A stretch of DNA of 64,000 nt from Bowdeniella nasicola (GTDB taxonomy: Bacteria; Actinomycetota; Actinomycetes; Actinomycetales; Actinomycetaceae): the NCBI RefSeq assembly GCF_900107735.1, contig NZ_FNQV01000011.1, positions 1-64,000 on the forward strand, written 5' to 3'. Numbering within the stretch: the first letter of the stretch is position 1; every line of letters starts with the position of its first letter. This document shows, one piece after another, positions 7,839-18,743 of this stretch. Below the pieces are notes generated by a model. It worked only from the letters and a program-made list of their open reading frames with translations, did not search any database and was not told the DNA's origin. A program made the translations under genes and the position numbers.

Positions 7839-8594
7839 ATGCACGTCGATCTGAACTCTGATTCGGGAGAGTCCTTCAGCAACTGGCAGATGGGCGACGA
7901 CGCCACCATGATGCAGATCGTGACCTCGGCGAACATCGCCTGCGGTTTCCACGCCGGAGATGCCTCAGTGATGTCGACGACGGTTGGCCTCGCGGCAGAA
8001 AACAACGTCGCGATTGGCGCCCACGTGTCCTACCAAGACCTGGCCAATTTTGGCCGCGTCTTCCACGATGTTGCCCCGAGCGATCTGACGAGCCTCGTTC
8101 TTTATCAACTTGGCGCGCTGCAGGCCCTTGGTGCGCCGCGCGGCGCGAAGATCCGCTACGTCAAGCCGCACGGTGCGCTGTACAACACGATCGTGACCCA
8201 CGAGGCTCATGCCCGCGCGGTCGTTGACGCGCTGGTGGAATTTGATGATGAGCTCCCCATCTTATGCCTGCCCAACTCCGTGATTTACCGAGAGGCTGAG
8301 CGGGCGGGACTGCGGCCCGTGGTGGAAGCATTCGCGGACCGTGCCTATACGCCTGAGGGCACACTCGTCTCGCGTCGCGAGGCCGGTGCCGTCATCACGG
8401 ATCCGCAGGTCGCGGCCGAACGCATGGTGCGTCTCGCCACCGAAGGTGTCCTGGAAGCAATCGATGGCAGCGATGTCAGACTCCAGGCGGAATCGATCTG
8501 CGTGCATGGGGACACGCCCAGCGCCGTTAACCTCGCCCGTACGGTGCGGGAGGCGCTGTCGAACGCCGGGGTTGAGGTGCAGGCATTCGTATGA
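7839..8594 (+). CDS. pxpA: 5-oxoprolinase subunit A (LamB/YcsF family)
   Basis: First subunit of the prokaryotic ATP-dependent 5-oxoprolinase PxpABC, which opens 5-oxoproline (pyroglutamate) to glutamate. Characteristic segments include MHVDLNSDSGESF at the start, ANIACGFHAGD, IGAHVSYQDLANFGR and KPHGALYN. Length (251 residues) matches the family. A clear AAGGAGACGAG ribosome-binding site precedes ATG 7839. Its stop overlaps the pxpBC start by ATGA, giving a coupled three-gene operon with the biotin carboxylase downstream. Confidence 0.94.
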   Translation: MHVDLNSDSGESFSNWQMGDDATMMQIVTSANIACGFHAGDASVMSTTVGLAAENNVAIGAHVSYQDLANFGRVFHDVAPSDLTSLVLYQLGALQALGAPRGAKIRYVKPHGALYNTIVTHEAHARAVVDALVEFDDELPILCLPNSVIYREAERAGLRPVVEAFADRAYTPEGTLVSRREAGAVITDPQVAAERMVRLATEGVLEAIDGSDVRLQAESICVHGDTPSAVNLARTVREALSNAGVEVQAFV

Positions 8595-10195
8595 ACCGCA
8601 CGATTCGCCCCTGCGGAGATCTCGCTTTCCTCGTCGAACTCGACTCACTCGACGACGTCGTGGCGCTGCACCATGCCCTCACATCGACCAAGCCTGCCGG
8701 TTTAGTCGAATGCCTCGCGGCGGCTTCAACCGTCCTCGTCCGAGCGGTCTCGCCGGTCGCGGCGCTAGAACTCGCCAGGTATGTCCGAGGCCTCGATGTC
8801 CACGATCGGATTGAGCGCGATTCAAAGGAAATCGTCATCGATGTGCGTTACGACGGCGAGGATCTCGATGACGTTGCAAAGTTGTTAGGGATGAGCCGCG
8901 AGGCGGTCATCGAGGCGCATACCAGCCAGGCCTGGACTGCCGCTTTTGGCGGGTTTTCGCCAGGCTTTGTCTATTGCATTGGCGAGAACGACTCGCTCAA
9001 CGTTCCCCGCCGGGACTCGCCGCGAACGTCGGTACCTGCTGGGTCGGTCGGATTGGCGGGACATTTTTCGGCCGTCTATCCCCGCTCCACTCCCGGTGGC
9101 TGGCAACTCATTGGCCGCTCGAGCGCACCCATGTGGGACGCGAGCGCCGATCAGCCCGCACTCGTCGCCCCCGGCAACATCGTCCGATACCGAGCTGTAA
9201 ACGAACTCGTCGAGATCTCCACGACGTCCCCCTCAATGCCCACGGGAATCGAGCACGGACTCCGGATCAAATCAACCGGAATCCAGTCTCTCTTGCAGGA
9301 TCAGGGCCGCCCAGGCTTCGCGGACCTCGGTGTCTCCGAATCGGGAGCCATGGACCTGCGTAGCGCTCGCCGAGCTAACCTGCTCGTGGGTAACCCGGTT
9401 GGATATGCCGTCATCGAGTCCCTCATGGGTGGCCTATCGGTGACGGCAATCGGTGACCAGGTCGTCGGCGTCGCGGGAGCCGATGTCGATATCACGGTCA
9501 CGGGAGCTCCCCTGGGCGGCGATGTTCCCGACTACACACCGCCGATCAACCGCCCATTTGCGCTCCTTGATGGCCAGAGCCTGACCCTGGGCTCCCCCAA
9601 GCGCGGGATGCGTTCCTATCTCGCGGTTCGCGGCGGATTCGATGTTCCGACGGTGCTTGACTCGGCTTCCGCTGACCTGTTGTCCCAGGAAGGTCCCGCC
9701 CCACTCGCGCCCGGTGTGGAACTCCCGGTGGCGAGCGCTGCGTGGCCCAGTTTTGTATCCGACCCTAAGCATGCCCCGGCGCTACCCCGAGACGTGGTCT
9801 CGGCCTCCATCATTCTTGGCCCGCGCGATGACTGGTTCGATTCGGACCAGATCGACCTGCTGCTCTCTCAGGAGTGGACGATCACGGAGACATCGAACCG
9901 AATCGGACTGCGCCTGGATGGCATGCCGCTCAAGAGCCGGGATATCGGCGAGCTCCCCTCCGAAGGGACTGTGGCGGGCGCGATCCAGATCCCCCATGAA
10001 GGAAAACCCGTGCTCTTCATGCGCGACCATCCGGTGACCGGCGGCTACCCAGTTATCGGAGTCGTCAACCATCATGACCTTGATGTCCTAGCGCAAATGC
10101 CCCCGGGATCTAAGATCCGATTCCGCCTCTACCACCAACCCTCCGTCGCCGACGACGCCATCGGTGCGCGGGCACCGGAAGGAAACGAGTCATGA
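8591..10195 (+). CDS. Fused 5-oxoprolinase subunits B and C (PxpB-PxpC)
   Basis: One 534-residue polypeptide joins the two subunits that are separate in E. coli and Bacillus. Residues 1 to about 215 are the PxpB/KipI part, with FGGFSPGFVYCIG near 118-130 and a proline-rich PRSTPGGWQLIGR stretch. Residues from about 222 are the PxpC/KipA part (biotin-dependent-carboxyltransferase-like fold), starting IQSLLQDQGRPGFADLG. Together with PxpA it should form the 5-oxoprolinase. It is coupled by ATGA overlaps to pxpA upstream and to the biotin carboxylase gene downstream. Confidence 0.92.
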   Translation: MNRTIRPCGDLAFLVELDSLDDVVALHHALTSTKPAGLVECLAAASTVLVRAVSPVAALELARYVRGLDVHDRIERDSKEIVIDVRYDGEDLDDVAKLLGMSREAVIEAHTSQAWTAAFGGFSPGFVYCIGENDSLNVPRRDSPRTSVPAGSVGLAGHFSAVYPRSTPGGWQLIGRSSAPMWDASADQPALVAPGNIVRYRAVNELVEISTTSPSMPTGIEHGLRIKSTGIQSLLQDQGRPGFADLGVSESGAMDLRSARRANLLVGNPVGYAVIESLMGGLSVTAIGDQVVGVAGADVDITVTGAPLGGDVPDYTPPINRPFALLDGQSLTLGSPKRGMRSYLAVRGGFDVPTVLDSASADLLSQEGPAPLAPGVELPVASAAWPSFVSDPKHAPALPRDVVSASIILGPRDDWFDSDQIDLLLSQEWTITETSNRIGLRLDGMPLKSRDIGELPSEGTVAGAIQIPHEGKPVLFMRDHPVTGGYPVIGVVNHHDLDVLAQMPPGSKIRFRLYHQPSVADDAIGARAPEGNES

Positions 10196-11946
10196 AGAAG
10201 GTCCTCATTGCTAACCGCGGCGAAATCGCGGTCCGCATCGCCCACACGTGCGCGGAAGCGGGTATCGCGTCCGTTGCGATCTTTGCCGACCCGGATGCCG
10301 AGGCCCTGCACGTGCGGGTCGCCGACGAAGCGTATTCGCTGGAGGGCGAAGAAGTAGCGGACACCTACCTAAACGTCGAGAAGATCTTGGATATCGCGCG
10401 CCGCAGCGGCGCCGACGCGCTACACCCCGGATACGGTTTCCTGGCCGAACGCGCCGATGTTGCCCAGGCCGTCATCGATGCGGGCCTAATCTGGATTGGC
10501 CCGGAGCCCCAAACGATTGAGCTGCTTGGAGACAAGGTCGCCGCCAGAAAGATCGCCGAAAAGGTTGGCGCTCCCCTCGTCAAAGGTAGCGATGGCAATG
10601 TGCCCGATTCTCGCAAGGCCCGTGAGGTCGCCGAAGAGCTTGGGCTACCGATCGCTATCAAGGCTGCCTATGGTGGCGGCGGGCGCGGCATGCGCGTCGT
10701 TCACCGCCTGCAGGACGTGGAAGAGGCATTCGAGTCGGCAGTACGCGAATCCGAGGCGGCCTTTGGACGCGGTGAGTGCTACCTCGAGCAGTTCCTAGAA
10801 AAACCCCGCCACGTCGAGGCCCAGGTTATCGCCGACAAGCATGGCAATGTCTTTGTGCTTGGCACCCGCGACTGCTCCTTGCAACGCCGTAACCAAAAAC
10901 TCGTGGAGGAAGCACCCGCACCATTCCTCACGGCTGAACAAAACGACCTCATCGTCAATTCGGCGCGCGACATATGCCGCGAAGCCGGCTACGTCGGCGT
11001 CGGAACGGTGGAATACCTCCTCGGCGCGTCGGGCACGATCTCCTTCCTTGAGGTCAATACCCGCATCCAGGTTGAGCACACGGTCACCGAGGAAGTCACC
11101 GGTCTCGACATGGTCCTCGCCCAGCTGCAGATCGCGGCCGGCGAACGGGTGCCCCTGGACGGCGATGTGCAGCCGACGGGACACGCCTTCCAATTCCGGA
11201 TCAATGCCGAAGACGTCGGCCGCGGGTTCCTGCCCGCCACGGGCACGATCGACGTATTCGACCCACCGACCGGCCCAGGTATTCGGATCGATACCGGAGT
11301 GCACACTGACTCGGTGATCTCCGGGCGCTATGACTCGATGCTCGCCAAGGTGATCATCTCCGGAATCTCGCGCAAGCACGCCATCCGGCGAGCGCGCCGA
11401 GCGCTCAAAGAGCTGCGGATCCGAGGAATTACGACGGTCTTGCCGTTCCATCGCGCAATCTTGGAAGAGGAGGCGTTCGTCTCCGATGAGGGCCTCGGCG
11501 TGTACACCACGTGGATCGAGCAAGAGTTCTCCGACCGCATCAAGGACGATCCCGACTTCCGGCAGGCGGTTCCGAGTCAGGAACGCGTGCGCATGATGAT
11601 CGAGATCGACGGCAAGAACGCGAAGCTCGGTGTTCCCGCGGCCTTCATGCGGGCTTTGGTCGCTGGCGGCGACGGGGGCGCCCTCGATGCGCTCGACGGC
11701 TCGGTGTCGGGACAGGAGCCGGGTGATCAAGCCGAACTCCGCTCCCCTATGGCCGGCACCGTCCTCAAGGTCGTCGCGAGCGAAGGGCAGGACCTCGAAG
11801 AGGGAGATCCCGTCGTGGTCTTGGAGGCCATGAAAACGGAAACGCCAATCCACGCCCACCGTGCCGGAACCCTCGAAGAACTCGCAGTCAGCACCGGTGA
11901 CAAAGTCACGCTCGACGACGTCCTCGCCCGAATCGTTACGGAATGA
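10192..11946 (+). CDS. Biotin carboxylase with C-terminal biotinyl domain
   Basis: ATP-dependent carboxylation of biotin, as in acetyl-CoA-carboxylase-type enzymes. The first 450 residues are an AccC-type biotin carboxylase (KKVLIANRGEIAVRI, ATP-grasp loop YGGGGRGMRV near 160, EVNTRIQVEHTVTE). A short linker leads to a biotinyl carrier domain with the lysine at about 548 in EAMKTETP. No acyl-CoA carboxyltransferase gene is adjacent; the neighbour is PxpBC, whose C half has a carboxyltransferase-like fold. This suggests the enzyme serves 5-oxoproline or lactam metabolism rather than fatty acid synthesis. The family call is firm, the pathway role is inference. Confidence 0.9.
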   Translation: MKKVLIANRGEIAVRIAHTCAEAGIASVAIFADPDAEALHVRVADEAYSLEGEEVADTYLNVEKILDIARRSGADALHPGYGFLAERADVAQAVIDAGLIWIGPEPQTIELLGDKVAARKIAEKVGAPLVKGSDGNVPDSRKAREVAEELGLPIAIKAAYGGGGRGMRVVHRLQDVEEAFESAVRESEAAFGRGECYLEQFLEKPRHVEAQVIADKHGNVFVLGTRDCSLQRRNQKLVEEAPAPFLTAEQNDLIVNSARDICREAGYVGVGTVEYLLGASGTISFLEVNTRIQVEHTVTEEVTGLDMVLAQLQIAAGERVPLDGDVQPTGHAFQFRINAEDVGRGFLPATGTIDVFDPPTGPGIRIDTGVHTDSVISGRYDSMLAKVIISGISRKHAIRRARRALKELRIRGITTVLPFHRAILEEEAFVSDEGLGVYTTWIEQEFSDRIKDDPDFRQAVPSQERVRMMIEIDGKNAKLGVPAAFMRALVAGGDGGALDALDGSVSGQEPGDQAELRSPMAGTVLKVVASEGQDLEEGDPVVVLEAMKTETPIHAHRAGTLEELAVSTGDKVTLDDVLARIVTE

Positions 11947-12739
11947 GGTAGTCCGAGTCCTTGGCGTCCGTAATCAGCATGTAGCCGGGGCCGTGGCCGA
12001 AGGCTAGATCGGGCGCCGATTCCATCACCGCCGCCTGGGGCGTGACGCCGCACGCCCAAAACACCGGGATGCTCCCGTCGGGAATGTTGACCGGAGAACC
12101 AAAATCGGGCCTGGCCAAGTCGGTTATCCCGATCATCGCCGGCTCCCCCACGTGCACCGGAGCACCATGCACCGCGGGATAACGCGAGGTAATCCGCACG
12201 GCATCGGAGACGCGATCGGCAGCGATTGGGCGCATCGAGACCACCAGCGGTCCCGAGATCCGGCCCGCAGTCTCACAGCGGATCGACGTTCGATACATCG
12301 AGACGTTCGTGCCCTGATCGATGTGAGGGATTCGGATCCCGGCCTCCATCAAAGGCGCTTCAAACGTGAAGGAGCAACCCAGGATGAAGGTCACGAGATC
12401 ATCGCGCCAATACGGCGTGAGGTCCGTGACCGTATCGACGAGCTTGCCACGTTCGTAGACGGTATAGGCCGGAAGATCGGTGCGGATATCGCCGCCAGCA
12501 AGCAGCGGTCCGGAGGTCTCCCCCGCATCCAGGACCCCAAGAATGGGGCACGGCTTCGGGTTGCGCTGGGCGAACAGCAAGAAGTCGAAGGCAATATCCT
12601 TCGGCACGATCATGAGGTTTGCTTGCGCATAACCTGCGCACCACCCCGTCGTGGGCACGGTGAGTCCCTGCCGGAACAGTGACCGTGCCGCACGCGGGTG
12701 AAGGTCCCGTGCCTCCTCAAGCGGCGGTGCCGTGACCAT
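11936..12739 (-). CDS. DUF1445 / YcsI-family putative hydro-lyase (D-glutamate cyclase-like)
   Basis: A 267-residue protein of the DUF1445 family, related to the N-terminal part of mammalian D-glutamate cyclase, which makes 5-oxo-D-proline from D-glutamate. Conserved segments are TTGWCAGYAQANLMIVPK, FILGCSFTFE, RNPKPCPILGV and FWACGVTPQAA. In Bacillus the ycsI gene sits with ycsF (pxpA) and ycsG, exactly the company seen here, so a role in feeding or balancing 5-oxoproline is likely. It converges on the biotin carboxylase gene (11-base overlap) and follows the transporter gene by 6 bases. Confidence 0.85.
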   Translation of the reverse strand: MVTAPPLEEARDLHPRAARSLFRQGLTVPTTGWCAGYAQANLMIVPKDIAFDFLLFAQRNPKPCPILGVLDAGETSGPLLAGGDIRTDLPAYTVYERGKLVDTVTDLTPYWRDDLVTFILGCSFTFEAPLMEAGIRIPHIDQGTNVSMYRTSIRCETAGRISGPLVVSMRPIAADRVSDAVRITSRYPAVHGAPVHVGEPAMIGITDLARPDFGSPVNIPDGSIPVFWACGVTPQAAVMESAPDLAFGHGPGYMLITDAKDSDYLIP

Positions 12740-12745
12740 GGGGCC

Positions 12746-14008
12746 TTATCCTCCGCTCCACAGCTGGGCGAGGCCGCCAAGCGATTGCCAGCCAAGGAAG
12801 ATCGTCAGCAGCCACGTCACGACCCCGATCACCAGGAGCCAGGCGGGATACACATAGCCGTTGAGCAGGTCGCGCCGGCGCCACGCCACCCACAAAATGA
12901 GTGCGAAACCAACGGGCAGGATGAGTCCATTGACGGCACCGGCCACGATAAGAATCGTCGTCGGAGCTTGGCCCAGCAGGAGGAAGACGATCGTGGAAAA
13001 CACGATGAAGCACACCGTCACGATGTTCCGCGTCCAGACCGAGGCACCTTGTTTGGTCATGAAGGACACCGAAGTAAAGGCCGCGCCAACCACCGAGGTA
13101 ATGGCCGCGCCCCACAGGATGACGCCGAAAATCCTCATTCCGATCTCGCCAGCGGCAGCGCCGAAGGCGGCCGCGGCCTGATTCTCCACGCCCTCGAGGT
13201 TCACACCCGATGTCACGACACCAAGGATTGCGAGGAACAACAAGAATCGCATGACCCCGGTGACGAGGATCGAAATCACCGATGAACGAGAGATCCGTCG
13301 AACATTTTCCGGACCGACAATTCCCGTGTCGACCATGCGGTGCGCGCCCGAGTACGTGATGTAACCACCCACGGTGCCGCCAATGAGGGTCGTGACAACG
13401 ATGAACTCGAACTTGTCGGGGATGACAGCCTGCTTCAGGGCCTCGCCGTACGGCGGAGCGGATACGACCGTCACGTAGATCATCAGGGCGATCATGACGA
13501 ATCCCAGGATCACGACGATGGAGTCGAGCGCCTTACCGGCGACCTTCCACAAGAACACGCCAATGGCTAGCGTCGCGGTGATGACGCCACCGATCTTGGG
13601 ATCGAGGCCGAGCATGGCGTTCAGTCCGAGTCCACCGCCGGCGACGTTGCCGATATTGAAGACGAGCCCACCGAGGGCCACCATGGCGCCGATGGCCCAT
13701 CCCAATCCGGGAAGGACGAGGTTGCCGAGGGTATTGGATCGCTTACCGGAGACGCCGATTACTCGCCACACATTGAGCTGCACAGCGATGTCAACGATGA
13801 TCGAGATCGTGATGGCAGCCGCGAAAGCGGCTCCCATTCGGATCGTGAAGTTGGTTGTTTGGGTGATAAACCCGGGGCCAATGGCCGATGTGGCCATCAG
13901 GAAGATGGCACCGATCAAGGTGCCCGACGCGGTTGCCGAGGGCGCTTTAGCAGCGCGCGTTTCCGTAGAATCGGGACCGATCGGCCCGGCAGGGTCTGTG
14001 GTCGACAT
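12746..14008 (-). CDS. NRAMP-family transporter (YcsG-like)
   Basis: Multi-spanning membrane protein of 420 residues with about eleven hydrophobic segments. The N-terminal helix reads FLMATSAIGPGFITQTTNF, in the place of the NRAMP DPGN metal motif but not matching it, which argues against a classical Mn/Fe transporter. The Bacillus homologue ycsG lies in the same oxoproline-type cluster, so the substrate may be an organic solute or another cation linked to this pathway. Likely co-transcribed with the DUF1445 gene six bases downstream. Confidence 0.8.
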   Translation of the reverse strand: MSTTDPAGPIGPDSTETRAAKAPSATASGTLIGAIFLMATSAIGPGFITQTTNFTIRMGAAFAAAITISIIVDIAVQLNVWRVIGVSGKRSNTLGNLVLPGLGWAIGAMVALGGLVFNIGNVAGGGLGLNAMLGLDPKIGGVITATLAIGVFLWKVAGKALDSIVVILGFVMIALMIYVTVVSAPPYGEALKQAVIPDKFEFIVVTTLIGGTVGGYITYSGAHRMVDTGIVGPENVRRISRSSVISILVTGVMRFLLFLAILGVVTSGVNLEGVENQAAAAFGAAAGEIGMRIFGVILWGAAITSVVGAAFTSVSFMTKQGASVWTRNIVTVCFIVFSTIVFLLLGQAPTTILIVAGAVNGLILPVGFALILWVAWRRRDLLNGYVYPAWLLVIGVVTWLLTIFLGWQSLGGLAQLWSGG

Positions 14009-17026: not shown

Positions 17027-18022
17027 TTAGCCGCGCCGTAAAAACTCACCTCTCATCTGGTCTCTACTCCTGCCCGCGTGCACCAGCACATGCGTGAGCA
17101 GGCGCGCCTTGCGCGGGCTGAGGCTGCCGGCCCCGATGAGTCCCCGCGAGAGCAGATCGGTTTCACTGCCGGGGTATCCGTAGGTCCCTTCGAGCGTCCG
17201 CCCGGCACCCGTCTTGGTCGCGAAGATCACGGGTAGCCCGCCAGCCACGAGATCCTCGCAGTGGTCGGCTGCGGCCGGCGACATGTGGCCAACCCCCGAG
17301 GCTGCCACGATGAGCGCGTCGATCCCCGTCGCCGCCAGCGCCGGCAGATAGCTGCCACCCTCGGCGAGCCCCACTTCAACGATCGGGATCGAAACGTCCG
17401 AAGGTGGCGGAACTGGCAGCGGATCGAGCCGCTTGGCCGGATTCAGCATGACGGTTACGTATCCTTCGGCAACTCGCGCAATGGGTCCCCAGTCGGGCGA
17501 ACGGAAGGTAGACAGCGACGTCGAATGGGACTTCGTGACGGCTCGGGCCAGGTGGATTTCGTCGTTGAAGGCAACAAGGACGCCGCAGCCACGAAGGTCG
17601 GGGCTGATCGCCGCGCGGATGGCAGCGATGAGGTTGGCGGGGCCGTCGGCGCTGGGCTGACTCGGCGAGCGCATCGCCCCGGTGATCACGAGTGGTTCGG
17701 GCTGGTCCCACAGGAGGTCGAGGAGGAAGGCCGTTTCTTCTAGCGTGTCTGTGCCGTGGGTCAGGACGATTCCGCGAGCGCCATCGGCGATGGCCGCACG
17801 CGCAAAACTAAGCGCGGCAAGGACCTCTGTCATCGTCATGGCCGGCGAGGCGAGGTTGCTGAGTGAGGTGGCGCGAATACTGGCGATATCGGCGAGCCCT
17901 GGAACCGCTGCGATGAGATCCGCCGCCGACATCTGCGGAGTAACTGCCTCGCTCGTGTCCGATGGTGTCATGGCGATGGTGCCACCGAGAGCTCCGAGCG
18001 CCACACTGGGCCGATGCGACAT
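17027..18022 (-). CDS. L-asparaginase
   Basis: Hydrolyses asparagine to aspartate and ammonia. The 331-residue protein shows the first catalytic Thr at about residue 15 (GALGGTIAMT) and the second catalytic block LTHGTDTLEETA near 88-97, followed by TGAMRSPSQPSADGPANL. There is no signal peptide, so it is probably cytosolic. The reading frame is open further upstream, but ATG 18022 has a strong AAGGAGG ribosome-binding site (18026-18034) and matches the family N-terminus. Confidence 0.92.
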   Translation of the reverse strand: MSHRPSVALGALGGTIAMTPSDTSEAVTPQMSAADLIAAVPGLADIASIRATSLSNLASPAMTMTEVLAALSFARAAIADGARGIVLTHGTDTLEETAFLLDLLWDQPEPLVITGAMRSPSQPSADGPANLIAAIRAAISPDLRGCGVLVAFNDEIHLARAVTKSHSTSLSTFRSPDWGPIARVAEGYVTVMLNPAKRLDPLPVPPPSDVSIPIVEVGLAEGGSYLPALAATGIDALIVAASGVGHMSPAAADHCEDLVAGGLPVIFATKTGAGRTLEGTYGYPGSETDLLSRGLIGAGSLSPRKARLLTHVLVHAGRSRDQMRGEFLRRG

Positions 18023-18113
18023 GTCGGCCTCCTTCCGTCTCCAATCTTTATAGCCCACGTGGCTCAGGGAGACGAACCCGCTGCGCGTTCTCACGCTCGG
18101 TAAGCTAGGTGAC

Positions 18114-18743
18114 ATGTCGAGCTCTCGGACGCAGGATCCCCGGATCAACGCGCTGCTTGCTCTCGTCGATTCGATCATGGCCCAGCGTAATCTTCCGATC
18201 GTGCCCGTACCGTTTGCGATGCAGGGCGATCCGGCTCGAGAACACATCATTGCGGCGTCGAATTTTCAGCTCTCCGCATTTGTTCCTGGCTCAGACGGCA
18301 GCTACGACAAAAGCCGCGGCCTGTTCCTCGCGACCGGTAAGATTGGGCTGCTCATCAGCGCGGGCATCATGGCAGGACAGGCGGCGCGTAATGCTCGCCG
18401 GCGCCGCGCCGCCGAGGCTGCTATGACTCCCCGGTGGGTGGCGGGCGAATCCGGAGCGCTGTGCGTCTCCCAGCTCGGGTTCTATTTGGTAACGAGCAGT
18501 GGGATCCACTTTTGGGGCTGGGGTGCGCTCGACTATGTCTCGATTACGGCAGCAGAAGAAATCGAGCTTCTGGGTCGCGCCGAGGCAGGGGCCGTACGCT
18601 GGCGCCTGCGATCCGAGGTCGCCGAACTCGTGTTCTTCCTGTGGGCGATCGTTCGAGCGCCTCACCATCCGCAGCTCACCGGCGAGCAGTGGCACATCGC
18701 GGCCGGCCGCGATTTTCATCGCGACCTGCCCGCGAGCGATTAG
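18114..18743 (+). CDS. Hypothetical protein
   Basis: A 209-residue protein of no family I can name. A mildly hydrophobic stretch lies near residues 76-92 (GKIGLLISAGIMAGQAA), followed by an Arg-rich patch (ARNARRRRAAE), then a C-terminal half with several aromatic residues (GIHFWGWGALDYV) reminiscent of a PH-like domain. It starts divergently from the asparaginase gene and ends in a 4-base convergent overlap with lutC. Function unknown. Confidence 0.65.
   Translation: MSSSRTQDPRINALLALVDSIMAQRNLPIVPVPFAMQGDPAREHIIAASNFQLSAFVPGSDGSYDKSRGLFLATGKIGLLISAGIMAGQAARNARRRRAAEAAMTPRWVAGESGALCVSQLGFYLVTSSGIHFWGWGALDYVSITAAEEIELLGRAEAGAVRWRLRSEVAELVFFLWAIVRAPHHPQLTGEQWHIAAGRDFHRDLPASD

Follow-up and report, generated by a model that had tools for sequence, protein, structure and literature searches.

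Does the bacterial 5-oxoprolinase activate its lactam with phosphate, or can it use CO2 carried on biotin? This question is raised by a locus of Bowdeniella nasicola in which pxpA, a fused pxpB-pxpC gene (product PxpBC) and a gene for a biotin carboxylase (BC) with its own biotinyl domain, that of a biotin carboxyl carrier protein (BCCP), follow each other on one strand. The locus lies in the first 64,000 nucleotides of contig NZ_FNQV01000011.1, the whole stretch that we analysed and call the window (contig 11; the genome has 2.53 Mb in 29 contigs). An earlier note, made from the letters of the window, had proposed that lactam opening here uses carboxybiotin. In our view PxpBC is probably a carboxyltransferase (CT) like that of urea carboxylase, which would be fed by AccA3-type carboxybiotin and would N-carboxylate the lactam for PxpA. 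The best reading of the cluster is a biotin-dependent lactam amidohydrolase that would be built like a split urea amidolyase.

The three-gene cluster

The pxpA gene (7839-8594, + strand, 251 aa) belongs to the LamB_YcsF family (PF03746, 326.7 bits) and encodes the proposed hydrolase that would open the activated lactam. Its product passes the NCBIfam PxpA subfamily model NF003814 (352.6 bits, cut-off 226) and scores below the cut-off of each of three PxpA equivalog models of NCBIfam; relatives with solved structures are 1v6t, 2dfa, 2xu2 and 1xw8. The fusion (8591-10195, + strand, 534 aa) carries the Pfam domains CT_C_D and then CT_A_B in a single chain, the proposed carboxyltransferase. The third gene (10192-11946, + strand, 584 aa) encodes Biotin_carb_N, CPSase_L_D2, Biotin_carb_C and Biotin_lipoyl, with the biotinyl lysine K548 in EAMKT. 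This BC-BCCP has the make-up of an AccA3-type alpha subunit, a BC plus a biotinyl domain with catalytic residues; its nearest solved relative is 5mlk, with AccA3 next. Both joints are ATGA stop-start overlaps (8591-8594 and 10192-10195, + strand), so the arrangement described in the earlier note can be read directly in the sequence, with its domains confirmed by Pfam. The nearest named relative of the locus is a B. nasicola metagenome-assembled genome (MAG; locus L063), with a PxpBC identity of 65%.

The earlier note had also pointed to the lack of an acyl-CoA carboxyltransferase gene, which holds for the window: the genome has a single PF01039 match, which is on contig 14, and none is in the pxp locus. 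Contig 14 also bears the only further Biotin_carb_C match, and one of the two BPL_LplA_LipB matches adjoins the PF01039 match there. Since the second BC and the single PF01039 match are both on contig 14, lipid synthesis has its own BC. The objection that the note had named against its own proposal, a linked BC that is the only one in the genome, therefore does not apply. We also rejected the explanation that the window BC is a spare acetyl-CoA carboxylase subunit, because the locus has no PF01039 gene and the one on contig 14 stands with the other BC.

Linkage of PxpBC and the biotin carboxylase

A scan of genome contigs with a single PxpBC protein gave no matches, and an alignment of 15 PxpBC proteins was used instead. 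The best 80 of the 589 relatives were kept as the main set of loci. A BC gene is found near the fusion, downstream of PxpBC and on the same strand, in 69 of these 80 loci, namely in all 35 from Pseudomonadota (among them Pseudomonas, Acinetobacter, Photorhabdus, Rhizobium, Variovorax and Cupriavidus) and in 34 of the 45 from Actinomycetota. Actinomycetota account for all 11 loci without BC, including L122, where the contig ends right after PxpBC. In 66 of the 69 loci we measured how far the BC start is from the PxpBC stop. The two overlap in 31 loci (in 19 by exactly 4 bases) and are within 50 bases in 29 more, 60 of 66 altogether; start codons were picked by a script, which surely erred in one of the 31 overlaps (-470). 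As the BC stands beside the fusion in 69 of 80 loci of other genomes, with tight spacing in 60 of 66, the pairing is not due to chance.

The cluster is also carried by plasmids. PxpBC is matched in 204 plasmid records, 95 of them from Klebsiella, and neighbours were read in two annotated records. One, from Klebsiella pneumoniae (IncFIB, NZ_CP114376.1, 27024-40604), has the compact run GntR-NRAMP-PxpA-DUF1445-PxpBC-BC, and the other, from Paracoccus, has PxpA-PxpBC-BC.

Because the query was the fusion and the best 80 of 589 loci were kept, this set is biased to fused, similar PxpBC. In order to correct for this, we added an even Pseudomonadota sample of 80 genomes, 21 of which have CT_A_B (32 matches, 11 of urea-carboxylase length). 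Twenty loci were read (19 plus L097), omitting a cut-off match in G084: five have an AccA3-type BC in the cluster, four an AccC-type BC and 11 none. Among 59 genomes near the window genome (own included), 26 have CT_A_B, and the 28 loci read are four urea carboxylases and 24 of the PxpABC type, nine of which have a BC (eight of AccA3 type, plus L059). An AccA3-type BC beside unfused PxpB and PxpC in L220 indicates that the fusion is not required.

Type of the linked biotin carboxylase

A quick-search tree of 113 BC domains (support from the Shimodaira-Hasegawa-like approximate likelihood ratio test, SH-aLRT), in which L034 and L063 are copies, places 77 of the 78 linked BCs together with Actinomycetota AccA3-type subunits in a single clade (support 100). 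This clade also holds the contig-14 BC of the window genome and that of Mycobacterium, and is apart from AccC, propionyl-CoA and methylcrotonyl-CoA carboxylases (PCC/MCC), pyruvate carboxylase (PC) and urea carboxylase; L059 is the sole linked exception. The 35 Pseudomonadota BC rows and one from a Cryobacterium MAG form a clade (95), in which the other rows are only second copies of the same loci. At 14 positions that we take to form the AccC active site, 13 have the AccC residue in 74 to 77 of the 77 linked BC rows, and the remaining one, H236, is N in 58 of the 77. The biotinyl motif was found by script in 70 of the 77, and L036, L136 and L093 were added by eye; L071 ends ahead of the carrier domain, and the BC chain of L059 is without one. 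The ANRGE start motif is missing in two Frigoribacterium BCs (L090 and L104).

Genomes without the linked gene nearly always have a close substitute. Of the 26 Actinomycetota genomes of this kind 15 were searched, and 14 of them encode elsewhere an AccA3-type BC-BCCP that is 52-57% identical, with matches running from residue 1-3 to 575-582. The PxpC tree has 115 rows, and one of its clades, with 91 rows (support 97), contains 77 of 78 rows with BC and 14 of 26 rows without; the latter are all from Actinomycetota and scattered, and all 35 Pseudomonadota rows have the BC. Seven Pseudomonadota genomes with the cluster gave 32 BC matches, of which 31 were placed in trees and the other (G064:C31) is a urea carboxylase by its length and CT domain. 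No second AccA3-clade BC was found in these seven genomes, where the pxp-linked BCs are the only members of that clade; this would explain why Pseudomonadota retain a dedicated gene.

AccC-type BCs occur in the PxpABC clusters of L214, L215, L217, L221 and L233 (read as L147), plus L059, with a small biotinyl protein in the run at L214 and L215. Tree distances make the BCs of L215, L217 and L059 mutually nearest and put those of L214, L221 and L233 nearest to AccC. L215, L217 and L059 also share the PxpC pattern YGYRNDAAVG at ten compared positions. PxpBC has thus been paired with more than one type of BC.

Sequence and structure of PxpBC

The carboxyltransferase-like fold that the earlier note assigned to PxpC is well founded, since PF02626 and PF02682 are matched and the structural matches include urea carboxylase; the fold is that of the urea-carboxylase-type carboxyltransferase (UCT). 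The AlphaFold model (54 sequences; predicted local distance difference test, pLDDT, 91.8) is closest to Mycobacterium smegmatis 3mml (Z 40.2, root mean square deviation (rmsd) 1.6 over 285), then to TTHA0988 (3opf, Z 39.3) and E. coli YbgJK (Z 36.5; 5dud is among the matches). These are followed by the Kluyveromyces lactis urea carboxylase/amidolyase, 5i8i_A with Z 34.7 and rmsd 3.9 over 307, and 3va7 with Z 26.3 and rmsd 3.9 over 308. Matches (VIA-align) ranking below the KipI, KipA and urea carboxylase group were treated as common folds. The CT core (D237, G239, R240, G252, D255, E276, R437, R441, D479, G484, G485 and Q502) is kept in nearly all rows of the PxpC groups and of urea carboxylases.

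Three further residues, R412, E458 and H480, define a subfamily. They occur together in 80 of 81 rows with a linked AccA3-type BC and in 23 of 26 Actinomycetota rows without BC, and in none of 27 other rows (six with AccC-type BC, seven urea carboxylases and 14 BC-less Pseudomonadota loci; three of these 14, and L233 of the AccC type, are extra copies outside the even sample). Their equivalents are aligned in MSMEG_0435 of M. smegmatis. This protein is part of the structure 9yx5, released 2025-11-26 under the title 'Structure of the long chain acyl-CoA carboxylase complex from Mycobacterium smegmatis with MSMEG_0435-MSMEG_0436 bound'. MSMEG_0435-0436, homologous to PxpC and PxpB, make up its chains V and W, and the AccA3 sequence is in the entry as well. 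In at least one species, then, an AccA3 complex has PxpBC homologues bound to it. The pxpA product has no match in 9yx5.

Proposed mechanism and alternative explanations

The BC-BCCP would make carboxybiotin from ATP and bicarbonate, as is known for its family and as its catalytic residues and biotinyl lysine suggest. The carboxybiotin would dock on PxpBC, and CO2 would be moved to the lactam nitrogen to give an N-carboxylated, activated amide. The lactam would most likely be 5-oxo-L-proline. PxpA would then hydrolyse the N-carboxylated lactam, and the resulting N-carboxyglutamate would lose CO2 to give glutamate. The comparison with other bacteria and the solved complex 9yx5 suggest that the ring is activated with CO2 on biotin rather than with phosphate. 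In Actinomycetota that lack a linked gene, lactam carboxylation would rely on the AccA3-type BC-BCCP encoded elsewhere in the genome, as 9yx5 suggests. A much wider version of this mechanism, which we regard as possible and yet doubtful, is that most or all PxpBC enzymes borrow carboxybiotin from any available BC, be it a dedicated one of the AccA3 or the AccC type or the housekeeping one. In that case N-carboxylation would be the way in which bacterial 5-oxoprolinase activates its lactam, and in many bacteria one BC would serve both fatty-acid synthesis and the recycling of glutamate.

That carboxybiotin feeds PxpBC has gained strong circumstantial support from the linkage in two phyla, the dedicated BC clade, the separate pairing with AccC-type BCs and 9yx5. 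The idea is less new than the earlier note took it to be. Both the question of other BCs and an operon of the same order are already in print. Lombard and Moreira (2011) observed that the carboxyltransferase of urea carboxylase occurs more widely than its BC, and raised the possibility that it works with other BCs (PMC3199775); a 2016 paper described mumTLUHC of Acinetobacter baumannii as one operon and called MumC a urea carboxylase (PMC5050338). None of the papers searched combines words beginning oxoprolin with words beginning carboxybiotin.

The masses of a purified enzyme were also compared. Component A of the Pseudomonas putida 5-oxoprolinase is quoted as 64 and 51 kDa (PMC8453981), and in our Pseudomonas loci the predicted masses are 61-62 kDa for the BC and 54-57 kDa for PxpBC (three of seven loci with a plausible start). 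An identity of component A with BC plus PxpBC is suggestive, not convincing, and we did not use it as support.

Several observations weigh against the carboxybiotin mechanism. In the relatives of the window genome 15 of the 24 PxpABC-type loci have no BC, and one BC-less genome of the 15 searched (G075, with L122) gave no AccA3-type BC. The linked BCs of L090 and L104 are without a carrier domain and are possibly degenerate or served by another BCCP. A BC of Mesorhizobium sp. Root102 (L246, G065:C16, frame 1033-2718, 562 aa) reaches 468 bits with the window BC, less than the AccA3 type and more than the other non-linked BCs of its genome set, and lies outside the AccA3 clade (support 88). The residue signature and the linkage are largely the shared ancestry of one clade, which defines a subfamily and is by itself no proof of mechanism. 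The structure 9yx5 shows binding, not catalysis; a literature search found no paper behind it, and the accessible parts of PMC11001197 and PMC4347857 contain nothing on PxpBC with AccA3. Although DUF1445 is near 37 of 78 BC-containing loci and NRAMP near 36 of 78, each with 0 of 26 loci without BC (L034, a copy of L063, dropped, the four urea carboxylase loci set apart and two fragments in G049 left unread), tree-based independent-pairs tests of BC against either were not significant (median p 0.25), and so these associations were not used as proof. In A. baumannii, mumC is needed for urea use and mumH is not, and mumH and mumC mutants are calprotectin-sensitive while mumL and mumU mutants are not (PMC5050338); the PxpA position thus behaved unlike the other two.

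The strongest of the alternatives, which we still hold to be unlikely, is the classical one: PxpBC phosphorylates 5-oxoproline with ATP, PxpA opens the ring, and the BC is co-regulated for another task, e.g., nitrogen control of acyl-CoA carboxylase. The 5-oxoprolinase models in print assume phosphorylation by PxpBC (PMC13274462), and PxpB-PxpC is reported to hydrolyse ATP (PMC8453981). Corynebacterium glutamicum requires pxpTABC in order to grow on 5-oxo-L-proline, and the same paper presents the phosphorylation as an assumption (PMC13274462). Both C. glutamicum and Bacillus subtilis use 5-oxoproline by means of PxpABC, with no BC described in the operon in the accessible text (PMC13274462). 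In addition, no BC lies within 7 to 8 kb in 11 of the 20 loci of the Pseudomonadota sample, which was not selected for the fusion. Against this explanation, a BC without its own carboxyltransferase gene stands beside the fusion in all 35 Pseudomonadota loci of the main set and is carried along with it on plasmids, PxpBC has BC partners of two types, and its homologues are bound to the AccA3 complex in 9yx5.

An improbable alternative is that the substrate is urea or a related amide. The BC and PxpBC would then form a split urea carboxylase, with PxpA in place of allophanate hydrolase, close to the proposal for the A. baumannii mum operon. Urea carboxylase and PxpBC have the CT fold in common, the order NRAMP-PxpA-DUF1445-PxpBC-BC of Acinetobacter L138 matches mumTLUHC, and deletion of mumC impairs growth with urea; mumH, however, at the PxpBC position, is dispensable for urea use (PMC5050338). 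The L138 BC has BC and biotinyl domains and no CT domain, and urea carboxylases form a separate clade of the PxpC tree (support 100). A one-chain urea carboxylase and a pxp-BC cluster coexist in three of 13 genomes examined (G059, G064 and G066; in the last, Acinetobacter tjernbergiae, as G066:C18 and G066:C14), which argues for different substrates. PF21986 (AH_C, the allophanate hydrolase C-terminal domain) has no match in the window genome, a search that an allophanate hydrolase without AH_C would escape.

We give equally little credence to a biotin-dependent hydrolase for some other lactam or a cyclic imide. PxpBC scores below the equivalog cut-offs of both PxpB (TIGR00370, 127.1 bits against 145.55) and PxpC (NF045499, 174.4 against 500) and passes the broader TIGR00724 (253.5 bits, cut-off 230.2). 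The substrate is therefore not secured, a further point against our reading, and the name 5-oxoprolinase rests on PxpA and synteny. On the other side, PxpA passes its own subfamily model. C. glutamicum has a regulator (PxpR) and a transporter (PxpT) for 5-oxoproline (PMC13274462), and genes of these two families, GntR and NRAMP, stand next to the operon in Klebsiella.

With a BC-linked subfamily in two phyla and 9yx5, the question of phosphate or CO2 is reduced to a simple avidin/bicarbonate test. If the carboxybiotin mechanism is true, it would explain a urea-carboxylase-type carboxyltransferase within a lactamase, give reason to revisit the Acinetobacter mum operon, and connect the salvage of amino acids with the biotin carboxylase that serves lipid synthesis.

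Neighbouring genes

Two genes on the opposite strand follow the cluster, and their products would be accessory to PxpA, PxpBC and BC. The first (11936-12739, - strand, 267 aa), which overlaps the BC gene tail to tail by 11 bases, encodes a DUF1445 or D-glutamate cyclase family protein ('putative hydro-lyase'; PF07286, D-Glu_cyclase, 214.4 bits; NF003969, 395.4 bits, cut-off 324; solved relatives 2pif and 3db9), a family to which B. subtilis ycsI also belongs. The suggestion in the earlier note that it supplies 5-oxo-D-proline is weak: the family name is its sole basis, and opening such a lactam would just regenerate D-glutamate. The second (12746-14008, - strand, 420 aa) encodes an NRAMP-family transporter (PF01566, 71.8 bits) with no NCBIfam match, a putative carrier of Mn2+ or 5-oxoproline. 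Its proposed role as 5-oxoproline transporter is disputed, as PxpT is needed for growth on 5-oxoproline (PMC13274462) and the homologue YcsG imports Mn2+ in B. subtilis (PMC10448178). About 3 kb beyond it lies an asparaginase gene (17027-18250, - strand, PF00710 and PF17763), another nitrogen-salvage enzyme.

Comparison with known systems

The cluster shares homologues of PxpA, PxpB and PxpC with PxpABC (YcsF/KipI/KipA; YbgLJK), which was found in the majority of 984 genomes in earlier work (PMC13274462), and an NRAMP neighbour with B. subtilis, as ycsG (PMC10448178). It differs in the fused PxpB-PxpC, the linked AccA3-type BC-BCCP, the PxpB and PxpC scores below cut-off and its own residue signature. 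With the urea carboxylase/amidolyase of K. lactis (3va7, 5i8i) it has in common a BC, a BCCP and the same carboxyltransferase fold, and the proposed parallel would be N-carboxylation followed by hydrolysis. In the window, however, these parts are split over two genes, PxpA replaces allophanate hydrolase and the proteins fall in separate clades; the full-length urea carboxylase model TIGR02712 (BC-CT-BCCP in one chain) gives 131.1 for PxpBC and 503.8 for the BC against a cut-off of 1303.85. The mumTLUHC operon has the families and order seen in Acinetobacter L138, its genes being equated by order only, whereas in print it is read as Mn import plus urea carboxylase plus allophanate hydrolase (PMC5050338). 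An AccA3-type acyl-CoA carboxylase would have a PF01039 partner, which is absent from the window locus. The M. smegmatis complex 9yx5 likewise brings an AccA3-type BC-BCCP together with PxpC and PxpB homologues, and MSMEG_0435 has R412, E458 and H480; there the BC is a subunit of the acyl-CoA carboxylase, whereas in the window it has its own gene in the operon.

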